The notes below the pieces were generated by a model. That model did not search any database. It saw only the letters and a program-made list of their open reading frames with translations, and was not told where the DNA came from. Of a DNA stretch of 11,626 bases, positions 1,844-11,626 are shown piece by piece. How positions within the stretch are numbered: the stretch's first letter is position 1; every line of letters begins with the position of its first letter. The position numbers were made by a program, and so were the translations under genes. Origin of the DNA: Casimicrobiaceae bacterium (lineage in GTDB: Bacteria; Pseudomonadota; Gammaproteobacteria; Burkholderiales; Casimicrobiaceae); the NCBI GenBank assembly GCA_955652025.1, contig CATPAO010000059.1, positions 1 to 11,626 on the forward strand, given 5' to 3'.

Positions 1844-1861
1844 CCGTCATCACATCGTCAC
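1844..1861 (+). promoter_or_regulatory. Possible Pho box upstream of the plcP-like gene
   Basis: CCGTCAT (6 of 7 matches to CTGTCAT), four spacer bases CACA, then TCGTCAC (4 of 7) give the 7-4-7 layout of a PhoB site with 10 of 14 matches. It points toward the plcP-like gene and ends 22 bp before its ATG. The second half is weak and the spacer is not AT-rich. A -10 element placed at the usual distance would put the transcript start near 1884, which would favour the downstream GTG at 1911 as start codon. Matches of this quality can occur by chance in a region of this size. Confidence 0.3.
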
Positions 1862-1883: not shown

Positions 1884-2765
1884 ATGTGCCGACTACGCTC
1901 TCGTCTCGACGTGAGCCCGTCCCCCGCCAAAGATGCCGAGAAGGACGAGTCCGACGGCCTGCTTCGATTCCGGACGATCTGGATATCGGATCTTCACCTG
2001 GGAACGGCGGGGTGTCAGGCGCGGCATTTGCTCGATTTCCTGCGCGCGACGGAGTCCGAGTTCCTATACCTCGTCGGCGACATCGTCGACGGCTGGCAGC
2101 TCCGCCGCCGCTGGTATTGGCCGCAAACGCACAACGACGTCGTGCAAAAGATCCTGCGCAAGGCGCGCAAGGGTACGCGCGTCGTCTTCATTCCGGGCAA
2201 TCACGACGAATTCGGCCGTCACTTTCTGAAGCTGTCGTTCGGCGGCATCGAGGTCTGTTCCGACGCCATTCATACCACGGCCGACGGCCGGCGGCTCCTG
2301 GTCTTGCACGGCGACTTGTTCGACGCCGTCGTCCAGCGTGTGCGATGGCTCGCGGTCGTGGGCGATCGCCTGCACACCGCGGTCCTGCATCTCAATCGCT
2401 GGTTGAACGCGATGCGCGCGCGGATGGGCTTTCCGTATTGGTCGCTTGCGCAATACGTGAAGCTCAGGGTCAAGGACGCGGTCAAGTACATGGTCGATTT
2501 CGAATGCGCGGTCGCGGCGGAAGCGAAACGGCGTGGGGTCCACGGCGTCGTTTGCGGCCACATCCACAAGGCCGAGATCCGCGATATCGGCGGCATTCTT
2601 TATTGCAACGACGGCGATTGGGTCGAAAGCCTGACCGCCCTCGTCGAAACCGATCGCGGCGACTTGCGCATCGTTCGCTGGCACGAGGTCGCTGCCCAAG
2701 CGACGCAATCCCTTTCCGCCGCAACCCACGAGGACATGACCCTTGCGTATATTGGTCGCCACTGA
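1884..2765 (+). CDS. plcP: PlcP-type metallophosphoesterase (phospholipase C-like; usually annotated UDP-2,3-diacylglucosamine diphosphatase, LpxH-like)
   Basis: This is a 293-residue calcineurin-like phosphoesterase with every metal-binding motif: SDLHLG (Asp36, His38), GDIVDG (Asp66), GNHDEF (Asn106-His107-Asp108), LHGD (His142) and GHIHKAE (His226, His228). No signal peptide or membrane segment is seen, so it is probably cytoplasmic or membrane-peripheral. The general family name is LpxH-like. However, stretches such as GDIVDGWQLRRRWYWPQTHN (65-84), QKILRKARKGTRV (88-100) and LYCNDGDWVESL (239-250) resemble what I recall of rhizobial PlcP, which cleaves phosphatidylcholine or related phospholipids to diacylglycerol during phosphate starvation. 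The next two genes act on diacylglycerol, which supports that role. Its end overlaps the glycosyltransferase start by 23 bp. The first 28 residues are not conserved and no Shine-Dalgarno precedes ATG 1884; GTG 1911 is a credible alternative. True LpxH in lipid A synthesis remains the competing reading. Confidence 0.9.
   Translation: MCRLRSRLDVSPSPAKDAEKDESDGLLRFRTIWISDLHLGTAGCQARHLLDFLRATESEFLYLVGDIVDGWQLRRRWYWPQTHNDVVQKILRKARKGTRVVFIPGNHDEFGRHFLKLSFGGIEVCSDAIHTTADGRRLLVLHGDLFDAVVQRVRWLAVVGDRLHTAVLHLNRWLNAMRARMGFPYWSLAQYVKLRVKDAVKYMVDFECAVAAEAKRRGVHGVVCGHIHKAEIRDIGGILYCNDGDWVESLTALVETDRGDLRIVRWHEVAAQATQSLSAATHEDMTLAYIGRH
2730..2734 (+). promoter_or_regulatory. Ribosome binding site fixing a TTG start
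   Basis: GAGGA lies 8 bases before TTG 2743, inside the 3' end of the plcP-like gene. The nearby ATG at 2736 belongs to the upstream gene's frame. The protein read from TTG begins MRILVATDAWTPQVNG, the usual N-terminus of this glycosyltransferase family, so this site and start codon are well supported. Confidence 0.65.
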
Positions 2766-3759
2766 CGCCTGGACGCCGCAAGTCAACGGCGTCGTCATCA
2801 CGATGCGCAACACGATTCGCGGCCTCGAAGCGGCGGGCCATACGGTGAACGTCGTCGGCCCGGACCGCTTTCGCAGCATCGCGTGTCCGACGTATCCGGA
2901 AATCCGGTTGGCCATCCTGCCCGCGCGCGGGCTTGCCAGGATCGTCGGCGAATTCATGCCCGACGCCGTGCATATATCCACCGAGGGCCCGCTCGGCATC
3001 GCGATGCGCAAGCTCTGCCTTGCCGAGAATCTTGCGTTCACGACCGCCTATCACACGCGCTTTCCCGAATACGTGCATGCGCGAACGCGGATCCCGACCG
3101 GCATCGCCTATGCCTGGTTGCGCCGCTTTCATGCGCCGTCCAAGGCCGTCATGGTGGCGACCGGCGCCATCGAGGACGATCTCTCGCGGCGCGGATTCTT
3201 GAATCTCGTCCGCTGGTCGCGCGGCGTCGACACCGCGCTGTTTCGCCCCGGGGCAAAGACGCCCAACGCGTGGCCACGTCCGGTTTTCATGTATGTGGGC
3301 CGCGTCGCGGTGGAAAAAAACATCGGCGCATTCCTGGCGCTCGACCTGCCGGGCACCAAGGTCGTCGTCGGCGACGGGCCGCAGCGCGCATCGTTGCAAC
3401 AGCGCCATCCGGACGCCGTGTTCACCGGCGCTCACTCGGGCGAGGCGCTGGCCGCGCACTTTCGGAGCGCCGACGTCTTCGTCTTCCCGAGCCGCACCGA
3501 CACGTTCGGGCTCGTGATGCTCGAGGCGATGGCGAGCGGCACGCCGGTCGCCGCGTATCCGGTGCCGGGTCCGCTCGATGTGATTCGCCATGGCGAAAGC
3601 GGAATTGTCGGAGACGACCTCCGCGCCGCCGCGCTGGCCGCGCGCGGTCTCGACCGCGACGTCGTGCGGCGCCACGCGCTCGCGTATTCGTGGGAGCGCG
3701 CGACGGCACAGTTCATCGCGCATCTGCATCCCAATCGTGCGCGCGACCGAGCTGCCTGA
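2743..3759 (+). CDS. GT4-family glycosyltransferase (Agt-like, probable glycosyl-diacylglycerol synthase)
   Basis: This is a 338-residue GT-B retaining glycosyltransferase. The N-terminal acceptor-side domain has TPQVNGVV (11-18), HISTEGPLG (77-85) and AYHTRFPEY (102-110). The C-terminal nucleotide-sugar domain has WSRGVD (158-163), YVGRVAVEKNI (184-194), GDGP (210-213) and SRTDTFGLVMLEAMASG (250-266). The EX7E signature is present as Asp253 to Glu261, with Asp for the first Glu. The protein resembles the Agt enzymes that transfer glucose, galactose or glucuronate from UDP-sugars to diacylglycerol, and the PimB/MgtA mannosyltransferase relatives. The sugar cannot be read from sequence. No membrane helices are seen, so it is probably membrane-associated on the inner face. 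Its TTG start overlaps the plcP-like gene by 23 bp and its end overlaps dgkA, which suggests translational coupling and a shared substrate. Known plcP-agt pairs are phosphate-starvation genes; applying that here is inference. Confidence 0.9.
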   Translation: MRILVATDAWTPQVNGVVITMRNTIRGLEAAGHTVNVVGPDRFRSIACPTYPEIRLAILPARGLARIVGEFMPDAVHISTEGPLGIAMRKLCLAENLAFTTAYHTRFPEYVHARTRIPTGIAYAWLRRFHAPSKAVMVATGAIEDDLSRRGFLNLVRWSRGVDTALFRPGAKTPNAWPRPVFMYVGRVAVEKNIGAFLALDLPGTKVVVGDGPQRASLQQRHPDAVFTGAHSGEALAAHFRSADVFVFPSRTDTFGLVMLEAMASGTPVAAYPVPGPLDVIRHGESGIVGDDLRAAALAARGLDRDVVRRHALAYSWERATAQFIAHLHPNRARDRAA

Positions 3760-4153
3760 AAGCCCGCACAAGGGACAGCGCGGACTGCGCCGTCTCGGCA
3801 ACGCGTTGTTCTACTCGTTGTCGGGTCTTCGTCTCGCGTTTCGCCACGAAAGCGCGTTCCGCCAGGAGGTGGCGCTCGCGGCGATCCTGGTGCCGATCGC
3901 GTGCATGGTCGACGTGTCGCCGGCGGAGCACGTTCTGTTGATCGCGTCGGTGCTGCTCGTGTTCGTCGTCGAGCTCCTCAACTCGAGCGTCGAGGCGGCG
4001 GTCGACCGGATCGGTCTCGATACGCACCGGCTGTCGAAGCGCGCCAAGGATTTGGGGAGCGCCGCGGTGCTGATCGCGCTCTTGATGCTCGCGACGACGT
4101 GGGGACTGATCGCGCTGCCGCCGCTCATGCGATGGCTCCAACATGGCGGATAG
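3737..4153 (+). CDS. dgkA: Diacylglycerol kinase (DgkA, prokaryotic integral membrane type)
   Basis: This small inner-membrane kinase phosphorylates diacylglycerol with ATP to phosphatidic acid. Counted from GTG 3737 it has 138 residues (E. coli DgkA is about 121). After a basic amphipathic N-terminus come three hydrophobic segments at about 44-60, 63-82 and 108-128. The signature ELLNSSVEAAVDRIG (79-93) gives Glu79, Asn82 and the catalytic Glu86, and AKDLGSAAV (103-111) gives Lys104 and Asp105; these are the key residues of the E. coli enzyme. The longer open frame back to 3590 lies wholly inside the glycosyltransferase gene and encodes Arg/Ser-rich shadow sequence, so I place the start at GTG 3737, overlapping the glycosyltransferase by 23 bp. 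No ribosome site is evident, consistent with coupled translation. In E. coli, DgkA recycles diacylglycerol from osmoregulated glucan synthesis; here the source may be the PlcP-like enzyme. Confidence 0.93.
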   Translation: MRATELPESPHKGQRGLRRLGNALFYSLSGLRLAFRHESAFRQEVALAAILVPIACMVDVSPAEHVLLIASVLLVFVVELLNSSVEAAVDRIGLDTHRLSKRAKDLGSAAVLIALLMLATTWGLIALPPLMRWLQHGG

Positions 4154-8309: not shown

Positions 8310-9665
8310 TTACAGCGCACGCCCCTTCGTTGCGATGACCTCCGAATAGAAGCGGGCGCTGTCCTTCGGCGTGCGCTTTTGCGTCGCAAAATCGACGTGC
8401 ACGATCCCGAAGCGCTTGGAATATCCCTGCGCCCATTCGAAATTGTCGAAGAGCGACCACACGAAGTACCCGCGCAGGTCGACGCCTTTATCCATCGCTA
8501 TGCGCAGCGCCTTGATGTGCTGGCGGAGGTAGTCGACGCGCAGCGGGTCTTCGAGACGATTGCCGTCGGCGGTCGGCGGATCGAAAAAGGCGGCGCCATT
8601 TTCTGTGACGTACATCACCGGATTTCCGTAGCGTTCCTTGACGCGCACGAGGGTGTCGGTCAGCCCCCGCTCGAACACCTCCCAGCCCGTCTCGGTATGC
8701 GTGGCCCGCTGCTGGCGCACCGGCGCGGCGTGCAACAACCAGTGGTCGGGATCGAATTGCGTGACGCTCCGCGTGTAGTAATTGACGCCGACGAAGTCGA
8801 TGGGCTGCTGGATCAGCCTGAAGTCCTCCGCGGGCCACTCGGGCCACGCATCGCCGAAGATCGCGCGAAGCTCCTCAGGATAGCGGCCGAGGAATACCGG
8901 ATCCAGATATTGCCGATTCATGTAGGCATCGGCGCGGGCCGTCGCCTCCCGGTCCGCTCGAGATTCCGACGCGGGGTACTTGGGCTCCAGGTTCACCACG
9001 ATGCCGATACGATGCTTGCCCTCGCTGCGATACGCCTGCACCGCGGCACCATGCGAACGCAGCAGATGATGCGTGGCGATCGGCGCCTCGAAGCGATTGC
9101 GGTGGCCGGGCGCGAGCACGCCGAACAGATAGCCGCCGTCGGTGACCACCCAAGGCTCGTTAAGCGTCGACCATAGCTTCACGCGGTCGTCGAGCCGCCG
9201 AAACAGAATCGCCGCGTAGTCGGCGAACCAGCCGGCGATGTCGGGATTGAGCCACCCTCCCTGGTCATCGAGCGCGGCCGGCAAGTCCCAGTGATAGAGC
9301 GTGGCCATCGGCTCGATGCCGTTCTGCAACAGCGCGTCGACCAATCGATCGTAGAAGTCCAGTCCGGCCGCATTCACCGTGCCGCGCCCGCGCGGCAGTA
9401 CGCGGCTCCACGAGATGCTGAAGCGATAGGTGTTCGTGCCGAGCTCTCGCATCAGCGCGACGTCCTCGGCGTAGCGCCGATAGTGATCGCATGCGACATC
9501 GCCGGTGTCGCCGCCGCGCACCCGGTTCGGCGTGTGCGCGAATCGCGTCCAGATGCTCGGACCGGCGCCGTCGGCCTGTGGCGAGCCTTCGATCTGATAT
9601 GCGGAGGTGGCCGTTCCCCAAAGGAAGTTCGCGGGAAATTCCATATTCTTCGACATTTTTATCAT
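8310..9665 (-). CDS. GH1 family beta-glucosidase
   Basis: This 451-residue (beta/alpha)8-barrel retaining glycosidase should release terminal beta-linked glucose (or galactose/fucose) from small glycosides. There is no signal peptide, so it is cytoplasmic. The N-terminal signature is FLWGTATSAYQIEG (14-27, Gln24). His125 in LYHWDLP and STLNEPW with Glu170 give the acid/base site. Tyr297 in NYYTRS, YVTENGAAF with Glu355 as nucleophile, and WSLFDNFEWAQGY (403-415; Trp403, Glu410, Trp411) complete the standard sugar-binding set. Length and all catalytic residues are typical, so it should be active. ATG 9665, 9656 and 9644 are all in frame; no strong ribosome site decides. It starts 19 bp after the six-hairpin gene on the same strand, so the two are probably one operon. 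The exact sugar is not readable from the sequence. Confidence 0.95.
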   Translation of the reverse strand: MIKMSKNMEFPANFLWGTATSAYQIEGSPQADGAGPSIWTRFAHTPNRVRGGDTGDVACDHYRRYAEDVALMRELGTNTYRFSISWSRVLPRGRGTVNAAGLDFYDRLVDALLQNGIEPMATLYHWDLPAALDDQGGWLNPDIAGWFADYAAILFRRLDDRVKLWSTLNEPWVVTDGGYLFGVLAPGHRNRFEAPIATHHLLRSHGAAVQAYRSEGKHRIGIVVNLEPKYPASESRADREATARADAYMNRQYLDPVFLGRYPEELRAIFGDAWPEWPAEDFRLIQQPIDFVGVNYYTRSVTQFDPDHWLLHAAPVRQQRATHTETGWEVFERGLTDTLVRVKERYGNPVMYVTENGAAFFDPPTADGNRLEDPLRVDYLRQHIKALRIAMDKGVDLRGYFVWSLFDNFEWAQGYSKRFGIVHVDFATQKRTPKDSARFYSEVIATKGRAL

Positions 9666-9684: not shown

Positions 9685-11626
9685 TCATTGCGTGTCGACT
9701 ACCACCTCGGCGGGGAGCTCGCGGACAAGCAACTCCTTGCCGCGCCATGCGGTCACCTTGCCGTTGACGTGCGCGATGCCCGGCGATTCCTTTCCGGGCC
9801 AGACGAATACAACGCCACCCGGCGGTAGCGTCATGTCGCGCGCAATGCGCACGATCACACGTTTGTCTTCCTTCCGCGCCGAGTATCGCAAACTCCCGTA
9901 GCGTGTGCGGAGGCCGCTCACGGCGATGCCCGGGCCGTCGAGCCAGTCCGCCGGAACGCCGGCGGCGAGCACCAGTGCGCCATCGCCCCGGCGCTCGTAC
10001 GCGAACAGATCGAGCGCGGTGCGAATGAAGTCGGACGCGACCCAGCCATGCGGCATGTCGCCGACAAAGCGCGGCTGCCTGACGTTACGACCGACGACCT
10101 CGGCCCATTGATTCCATGCCGCCGGACACCGGCCGGCAAGGAAGAACGCGAGGAGCTCCTGCGCGCGGTCGCGCCAACCCAGGCGCACGAACGTGCCGAC
10201 CGTGCGAAGCTCGTACGGCGTGTAGTCGCTCCATTCCTTGCGGCCATCGCGGCGATCGACGAACTCGCGCCAGTAACGTTCGTACGTCGGCTCGATGCCG
10301 GCCGGCGCGAGCTGATCCAGGTCACCCTCCGGAGCCAATGCGATCGCCGTCGACGTGGGATCGAAATCGCCGAGCTCGGCGGCGCCGGGAATATACGAGA
10401 TTCCGTGCGCGGCCATCGACGCGCGGAGTGACGCCGCGAGGTCCCCGCGAAATTCGTCGCGCTCGCGCGCGAGCCGATCCGCCGCCTCACGGTGACCGAG
10501 CACCGTGGCGGCATCCACTGCGGCATCGTAGCCCTTGAGCGCCCAGAAATCGTCCCAGTACGAGTGCATCGGCTTTTCCGAATATCCCTCGTGACTGATC
10601 GACGCCGGCATCAGTCCGTAGAACGCGCGACGCGCGGGGGCAAGATTCGCTTCCGTGCGTTCGGATTGGCGCAAGCGCTCGAGGTAGCGCGCCGCCGCGT
10701 CGAGCCGCGGCCACAGCGTCTCGAGCAACGCGCGATCGCCGGTGTGGCGATACACGGCCATGGCCAGAAACAGCAACTCGCCGGCGCTGTCGTTTTCGGG
10801 AACGGGATCGGCGCCGCGCTCGTCGACACAACAGGGAACTTTGCCGTTGTCGAACTGGTGCGGCGCGTACCAGCGCAAATAATCGGCCGCGACATCCGCG
10901 TGTCCAAGGCGCAACAGCGATTCCGACATCATCGCGCCGTCGCGAATCCACGAGCGCGCGTACGACCGCGTTCCGGGACGCAGCACCGGGCCGTCGCGCG
11001 TGATCAGGATATGCGCGAGCGCCGTGCGCAACGTGTCGGCGATCGGTTTGCCCGCCGCGGGAACGCGGATCGCCACGCGGTTCTGCTTCGAACGCCACGC
11101 CGCGGCGACCGCGTCCTGCTGCCGTCCCAGCCAGCTCGACGGCGACAATCCCATCAGCGTCGGACGCATCGCGGCCCCGGACAGCGGGACGACAACGCCG
11201 ACTGTGCGGCTTCCCCGTGGCGGAAGCGTCAGGCGGTAAGCGAGCGCGCCCGACGCATAGCCGGTCGGATCGTGGACCTCTTTGGCGGCCGCCCAGGTCG
11301 ATGTCGTAAAGAGTTTGGGCACGGGCCTGGCATCGAGCGGGAATGCACCCACGCGATCCGGCGGCGACAACGCGAAGACGCGGCGCGTGCCGTTCACCGA
11401 CATCGCGCCGTCGTCCCAGGTGACGTCCCAGATCGCGCTCACGCCGCCCGGCGCATTGAGAAATTGCGTCGGCGGGTTCACCTGGAACGGACGGATCGCG
11501 AGAACGAGCGTCAGCGTCACCGGCCGGCTCGTGCGATTGCGGACGTCGTAGCGCGCGATCAATTGCGACGCGGCGCGCGTGCCCGCGGCAAACGTCGTCA
11601 CGCGCATCTCCCACGCGGAACGACGC
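9685..11626 (-). CDS. Six-hairpin (alpha/alpha) glycosidase-like protein, C-terminal part (5' end off right edge)
   Basis: The frame is open to the right edge with no stop; the Met at 11607 is probably internal because six further sense codons precede it. Numbered from that Met (640 residues), 1-140 is beta-rich (ARYDVRNRTSRPVTLTLVLA at 18-37) and looks like the beta-sandwich that precedes an (alpha/alpha)6 barrel. The barrel spans about 188-540, with SWIRDGAMMSESL (219-231), NGKVPCCVDERG (254-265), ENDSAGELLFLA (271-282), SYWDDFWALKGYDAA (349-363) and GDMPHGWVASDFIR (516-529). Acidic residues Asp223, Glu271, Asp273 and Asp352-353 are candidates for catalysis. A small beta domain closes the chain (about 545-640). 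Similar proteins are often annotated 'discoidin or coagulation factor 5/8 domain' or 'six-hairpin glycosidase'; any discoidin part would lie outside. The substrate is unknown; the GH1 gene next to it suggests a glucan or glycoside. Whether it is exported cannot be judged without the N-terminus. Confidence 0.85.
   Translation of the reverse strand, partial: RRSAWEMRVTTFAAGTRAASQLIARYDVRNRTSRPVTLTLVLAIRPFQVNPPTQFLNAPGGVSAIWDVTWDDGAMSVNGTRRVFALSPPDRVGAFPLDARPVPKLFTTSTWAAAKEVHDPTGYASGALAYRLTLPPRGSRTVGVVVPLSGAAMRPTLMGLSPSSWLGRQQDAVAAAWRSKQNRVAIRVPAAGKPIADTLRTALAHILITRDGPVLRPGTRSYARSWIRDGAMMSESLLRLGHADVAADYLRWYAPHQFDNGKVPCCVDERGADPVPENDSAGELLFLAMAVYRHTGDRALLETLWPRLDAAARYLERLRQSERTEANLAPARRAFYGLMPASISHEGYSEKPMHSYWDDFWALKGYDAAVDAATVLGHREAADRLARERDEFRGDLAASLRASMAAHGISYIPGAAELGDFDPTSTAIALAPEGDLDQLAPAGIEPTYERYWREFVDRRDGRKEWSDYTPYELRTVGTFVRLGWRDRAQELLAFFLAGRCPAAWNQWAEVVGRNVRQPRFVGDMPHGWVASDFIRTALDLFAYERRGDGALVLAAGVPADWLDGPGIAVSGLRTRYGSLRYSARKEDKRVIVRIARDMTLPPGGVVFVWPGKESPGIAHVNGKVTAWRGKELLVRELPAEVVVDTQ

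Follow-up and report, generated by a model that had tools for sequence, protein, structure and literature searches.

The window analysed here, an 11,626-nucleotide stretch of contig CATPAO010000059.1 from the Casimicrobiaceae bacterium assembly GCA_955652025.1, carries on its plus strand three genes in series, plcP, an agt-like gene and dgkA, each overlapping the next by 23 nt, with a Pho-box-like direct repeat upstream of the first (Table 1). The initial annotation had described three overlapping frames; the overlaps are real, but the start of the third frame had to be moved from ATG 3590 to GTG 3737, and the first gene probably starts at GTG 1911.

Table 1. Position of the three genes and of the upstream repeat in the window.
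Feature	Position	Strand	Remarks
Pho-box-like direct repeat CCGTCAT-CACA-TCGTCAC	1844..1861	+	GTCAT and GTCAC 11 bp apart
plcP, predicted PlcP-type phospholipase C (metallophosphoesterase)	1911..2765	+	ORF (open reading frame) open from ATG 1884; GTG 1911 preferred
agt-like GT4 glycosyltransferase, predicted diacylglycerol glucosyltransferase	2743..3759	+	TTG start; GAGGA at 2730-2734
dgkA, integral-membrane diacylglycerol kinase	3737..4153	+	GTG start

For plcP, GTG 1911 is more likely than ATG 1884, because this position coincides with the start predicted for the closest relative, which is 90% identical. The limits of dgkA were chosen because its homologous core begins near 3779 and no in-frame start lies closer to it than GTG 3737. 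By alignment, the 23-nt overlap between plcP and the glycosyltransferase gene is common to eight other loci (L003, L006, L012, L192, L193, L194, L196 and L197), which amount to about six independent sequences because L003/L194 and L006/L197 are identical pairs.

The three encoded enzymes

Pfam searches of the products returned Metallophos (calcineurin-like phosphoesterase, 1e-12) for the first, GT4 domains (down to 1.1e-22) for the second and DAGK_prokar (2.2e-32) for the third, in agreement with the GT4 glycosyltransferase and complete DgkA described initially.

The product of the first gene is a predicted PlcP-type phospholipase C. It showed 48.6% identity to PlcP of Sinorhizobium meliloti and about 50% to PlcP of Pseudomonas aeruginosa, as against 27% to the LpxH of the same genome. 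The metal-ligand motifs DLH, GD, GNHD, HGD and GHIH aligned with those of both PlcP proteins, in agreement with the earlier statement that all metal ligands are present. Relatives of the window protein carry the name LpxH in database annotation, a misnaming that had been anticipated and a reminder that many plcP genes bear this label. The two proteins belong to the same superfamily and the window protein gave weak matches to LpxH models, as would be expected if the first gene encoded an LpxH-type lipid A enzyme in a cluster serving envelope lipid A or glycan synthesis. This alternative is very improbable and was rejected: the scores of 44.1 and 47.9 bits were far below the respective cut-offs of 190.35 and 134, a separate LpxH that scores 265 bits and passes the curated cut-off is encoded on another contig of the genome, and the phylogenetic separation was clean. 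A careful phylogeny with 68 rows placed 64 PlcP-like proteins and four LpxH (L001, L153, L158 and L161) on the two sides of one branch, with support of 100/100. In a quick (drawn) tree, which took in three of ten LpxH loci, the window protein fell among Burkholderiales PlcP, on the side of the tree that also contained the proteins of S. meliloti and P. aeruginosa. Of the checks proposed by the initial annotation, the phylogeny and the search for a second lpxH both came out on the side of PlcP.

Two database labels deserve comment. A plcP from a bin labelled Klebsiella pneumoniae (L063) branched among the Burkholderiales, and this label is probably wrong. The S. meliloti PlcP was taken from a 3.7-Mb record (L149) labelled plasmid pSymB, whose size, compared with what we take to be the usual size of pSymB, suggests a mislabelled chromosome.

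The second gene is predicted to encode a diacylglycerol glucosyltransferase, glucose being the presumed donor sugar. Its product was 52% identical, over nearly the full length, to the glycosyltransferase encoded next after plcP in a P. aeruginosa plasmid record (L150), taken as Agt1, which makes monoglucosyl-diacylglycerol from UDP-glucose and diacylglycerol (PMC8528852). The best NCBIfam match, although weak (56.7 bits; cut-off 480), was to N-acetylglucosaminyl-phosphatidylglycerol synthase and would fit an enzyme acting on another acceptor, e.g. phosphatidylglycerol. In view of the nearly full-length identity to a protein reported to use diacylglycerol (PMC8528852), a different acceptor is quite unlikely. 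L150 was equated with the pair PA3219-PA3218 because of its gene order, its annotation and the identity of its PlcP to that of S. meliloti, 46.6% compared with the 46% reported for PA3219 (PMC8528852). At least three P. aeruginosa plasmid records (H19-H21) carry a plcP homologue; in the one represented by L150 the glycosyltransferase gene follows and the neighbours look chromosomal.

The third product was assigned to DgkA on the basis of a complete PF01219 domain and of the motif VELLNSSVEAAVDRIG...RAKDLGSAAVL, which we take to be the active-site motif. Its 111 aligned residues kept this motif in comparison with the solved DgkA structures 3ze3-3ze5, presumably those of the Escherichia coli enzyme; the window gene differs in that it overlaps a lipid-remodelling pair. 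No other DgkA was found in the assembly, the completeness of which is 67%.

The upstream repeat and known remodelling systems

The repeat upstream of plcP is followed at 1868-1872 by a degenerate third copy, GCCAC, and is an exact match to the pattern GTCAYN6GTCAY. This pattern was present in 44 of 128 distinct regions upstream of plcP (window included) versus 25 of 2457 control windows, an excess inflated by the mutual relatedness of the 128 regions. Each of 13 other spacers (range 2 to 15) was found in only 0-2 of the same 128 regions, which indicates a sharp spacing peak. Scored against the reported Pho box consensus CTGTCATNNNNCTGTCAT (PMC8528852), 11 or more positions matched in 24 of 79 regions upstream of plcP in relatives versus 14 of 352 controls. 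The genome also encodes PhoB (333 bits) and PstS (364 bits), both over their cut-offs. The putative plcP-agt-dgkA operon of the window is predicted to be under PhoB control, the repeat being a putative binding site.

Pho control of dgkA irrespective of its location was not supported, since a box was found in only one of 60 regions upstream of dgkA genes lying away from plcP, a fetched subset from plcP-bearing genomes. In the single case, L242 (G136:C19), the dgkA core is preceded at 77 nt by the good Pho-box-like repeat GTCATCAAACCGTCAC; the genome has at least two DgkA genes.

Membrane lipid remodelling by PlcP and Agt is well established (PMC4796936, PMC8528852, PMC9239053, PMC3972451). The P. 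aeruginosa pair plcP-agt1 (PA3219-PA3218) has the same gene order as the window and overlapping genes (by 4 nt in L150), with identities of about 50% and 52% to the window products, and a Pho box has been reported upstream of it (PMC8528852); no dgkA is annotated at this place in L150, whereas in the window dgkA overlaps the glycosyltransferase gene. In marine bacteria with the type 2 arrangement, plcP adjoins a GT4 agt gene and a glycolipid is formed, as would be expected for the window pair, and Pho boxes have been reported for the marine PlcP clusters; the term "diacylglycerol kinase", on the other hand, does not occur in that paper (PMC4796936). In Methylosinus trichosporium, too, plcP adjoins a GT4 agt and a glycolipid is formed, with neither "kinase" nor "DgkA" in the source (PMC9239053). 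The plcP of S. meliloti, whose product shares the motifs of the window protein, differs in having no glycosyltransferase gene or dgkA annotated within 3 kb (L149).

A functional link between a diacylglycerol kinase and remodelling has a precedent in Pseudomonas putida BIRD-1, in which PlcP and the diacylglycerol kinase DagK both rise under phosphate depletion, DagK being listed among the lipid-remodelling proteins (PMC5082522). Clustering of plcP, agt and dgkA was not reported in the literature searched, in which subscription journals were thinly covered, so a report may exist. The PlcP-Agt pathway is thus known, and the modest novelty is the conserved linkage of a kinase to it. The sources available deal with the pathway in Alphaproteobacteria and Pseudomonas, and they say little about what becomes of diacylglycerol that escapes conversion into phosphate-free lipid.

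Linkage of dgkA to plcP in the Burkholderiales

To the plcP survey, 155 of 300 Burkholderiales genomes gave matches, and 150 plcP places in 149 genomes were analysed for linkage, defined as a DgkA no more than 3.3 kb from plcP. The positions of DgkA were collected mainly for plcP-bearing genomes and then for 80 further genomes, and all counts are among the matches listed; four of the 149 plcP genomes had no DgkA position entered, and one of these (G014) had no DgkA among those matches. Linkage was found at at least 34 of the 150 places, under ten family labels, versus an expectation by chance of 0.24 (assuming genomes of 4 Mb) to 0.73 (assuming 1.3 Mb), and chance adjacency was rejected. The association with dgkA, which the initial annotation had found the least familiar part of the arrangement, hence recurs across the order. 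Among 80 named Burkholderiales loci, 24 had DgkA near plcP; in the 69 for which the downstream sequence reached 2.5 kb or more, the glycosyltransferase gene adjoined plcP in 40 and all three genes were present in 21.

Several gene orders were observed. The order plcP-GT-dgkA (GT, glycosyltransferase gene) of the window is shared by other loci, among them that of a Cupriavidus necator strain (L050), and plcP-GT-dgkA-GT was found in L198-L201; in L201, phoX is divergent to plcP. The pairs plcP-dgkA (L212) and dgkA-plcP (L211) had no Agt-like gene in the fetched region; the DgkA of L212 is based on a PF01219 match at that place and a 140-bit match, and the pair of L211 lies between phoX and pstS-pstC. 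In L213 and L214, plcP and dgkA are divergent, the former pair coming after pstC-pstA-pstB and the latter lying close to pstB and a gene for an OlsB-like protein. In L205 and L206 an OlsB-like acyltransferase gene is included in the order plcP, acyltransferase, dgkA. The OlsB-like proteins scored 154-169 bits, under the OlsB cut-offs of 320-350. In the phosphate-gene neighbourhood of L214, genes for an ArsR-type regulator and an ACR3 arsenite transporter follow dgkA (L214:5745-7593).

On a tree of 120 PlcP loci, from which loci with less than 2.5 kb downstream and without DgkA were left out, the linked label required six changes (gains or losses), at least three of them forced by well-supported branches. 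Outside the order, no DgkA match was found in 20 regions fetched from among the 133 genomes that matched PlcP, and no dgkA was annotated near plcP in four plasmid records; both results are weak, as the flanks were mostly 2-4 kb. Among close relatives the cassette is patchy, because four genomes that are 97-99% complete, G290 of the same genus and G037, G183 and G266 of the same family, had no PlcP (E up to 1e-40) or DgkA match among the matches listed.

Proposed pathway and role of DgkA

The window probably carries a PhoB-controlled membrane-lipid remodelling operon in which PlcP makes diacylglycerol, Agt uses it and DgkA phosphorylates the rest. The activities, the sugar donor, co-transcription, PhoB binding, the lipids formed and a valve role of DgkA during starvation are what we infer from the sequences. 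At low phosphate, PhoB would bind the repeat and turn on all three overlapping genes. PlcP would remove the phosphorylated head group from phospholipids, releasing diacylglycerol, to which the GT4 enzyme would attach glucose (possibly glucuronate) to give a phosphate-free glycolipid. Diacylglycerol left unglycosylated would be turned by DgkA into phosphatidic acid, so that it would not build up and could re-enter phospholipid synthesis.

Two other roles of DgkA have to be considered. It may be a housekeeping kinase that clears diacylglycerol of any source, e.g. from periplasmic glucan synthesis or lipid A modification, with no special role in starvation, its gene adjoining plcP because both enzymes handle diacylglycerol. 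This explanation is a serious possibility, although we would not call it probable. It agrees with the fact that the linked DgkA was the only one found in 23 of the 34 linked genomes (among the matches listed), that 116 of the 150 plcP places had no DgkA within 3.3 kb among those matches, and that the DgkA core starts 161-480 nt past the stop of the glycosyltransferase gene in 17 loci of Burkholderia and Paraburkholderia, leaving room for another promoter. It is opposed by the overlapping frames, seen in the window and also in relatives such as L003, L193, L194 and L208, which suggest one transcript from a Pho-like promoter, and by L211, in which dgkA stands beside pst genes and phoX with a box upstream, whereas 59 of the 60 unlinked dgkA genes had none.

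The second alternative is that DgkA serves mainly as a return route, by which phospholipid is rebuilt from leftover diacylglycerol once phosphate is again available. Enzymes of the DgkA family convert diacylglycerol into phosphatidic acid, and this chemistry fits such a role. A gene placed behind a Pho-like box, however, should be expressed during starvation and switched off once phosphate is supplied again, and glycolipids themselves are not known to be substrates of DgkA. A pure return route is accordingly doubtful, and a balancing or safety-valve function during starvation is favoured, because the box should drive expression in starvation and because dgkA pairs with plcP at loci in which no Agt-like gene was found (L211 and L212).

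Against the operon and the balancing role of DgkA as proposed, a number of observations must be set. The window box matches 10 of the 14 consensus positions, a score of 10 or more also being reached by 51 of 352 random windows, which makes this one site weak when taken by itself, and the strict pattern GTCAYN6GTCAY was not found in 84 of the 128 plcP upstream regions. A forward box before dgkA itself was found in one of ten linked loci (L211), several of the ten having dgkA downstream in the same operon, and in L213 and L214, where dgkA is on the strand opposite to plcP, the 500 bases preceding dgkA contained no box. The 116 plcP places without a DgkA nearby indicate that linkage is not required, the frequency of a sole, linked DgkA fits a housekeeping kinase, and the source assembly is incomplete. 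Phosphorylation of diacylglycerol during starvation partly undoes the saving of phosphate. As to the precedent in P. putida, DagK is absent from the available listing of proteins lost in the phoBR mutant, although the authors describe it as PHO-dependent in their discussion, and whether DagK is of the DgkA type is not stated in the passages available (PMC5082522).

For the order as a whole, the chances appear about even that DgkA was drawn more than once into phosphate-starvation lipid remodelling, giving a three-enzyme branch point at diacylglycerol in which the kinase sets the share of glycolipid versus phospholipid. Because a kinase recurs beside plcP in a further order, removal of one gene would suffice to test the question of leftover diacylglycerol.

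The upstream neighbour of plcP is a gene for an FAD-dependent oxidase on the minus strand, and downstream an ORF for an NCS2-type nucleobase permease opens 54 nt past dgkA. RNA-family and tRNA searches across the window found nothing. Farther downstream, on the minus strand, a GH1 beta-glucosidase above the model cut-off is encoded at 8310-9665, and the adjoining gene at 9685-11607, also on the minus strand, encodes a protein weakly matching glycosidase families.

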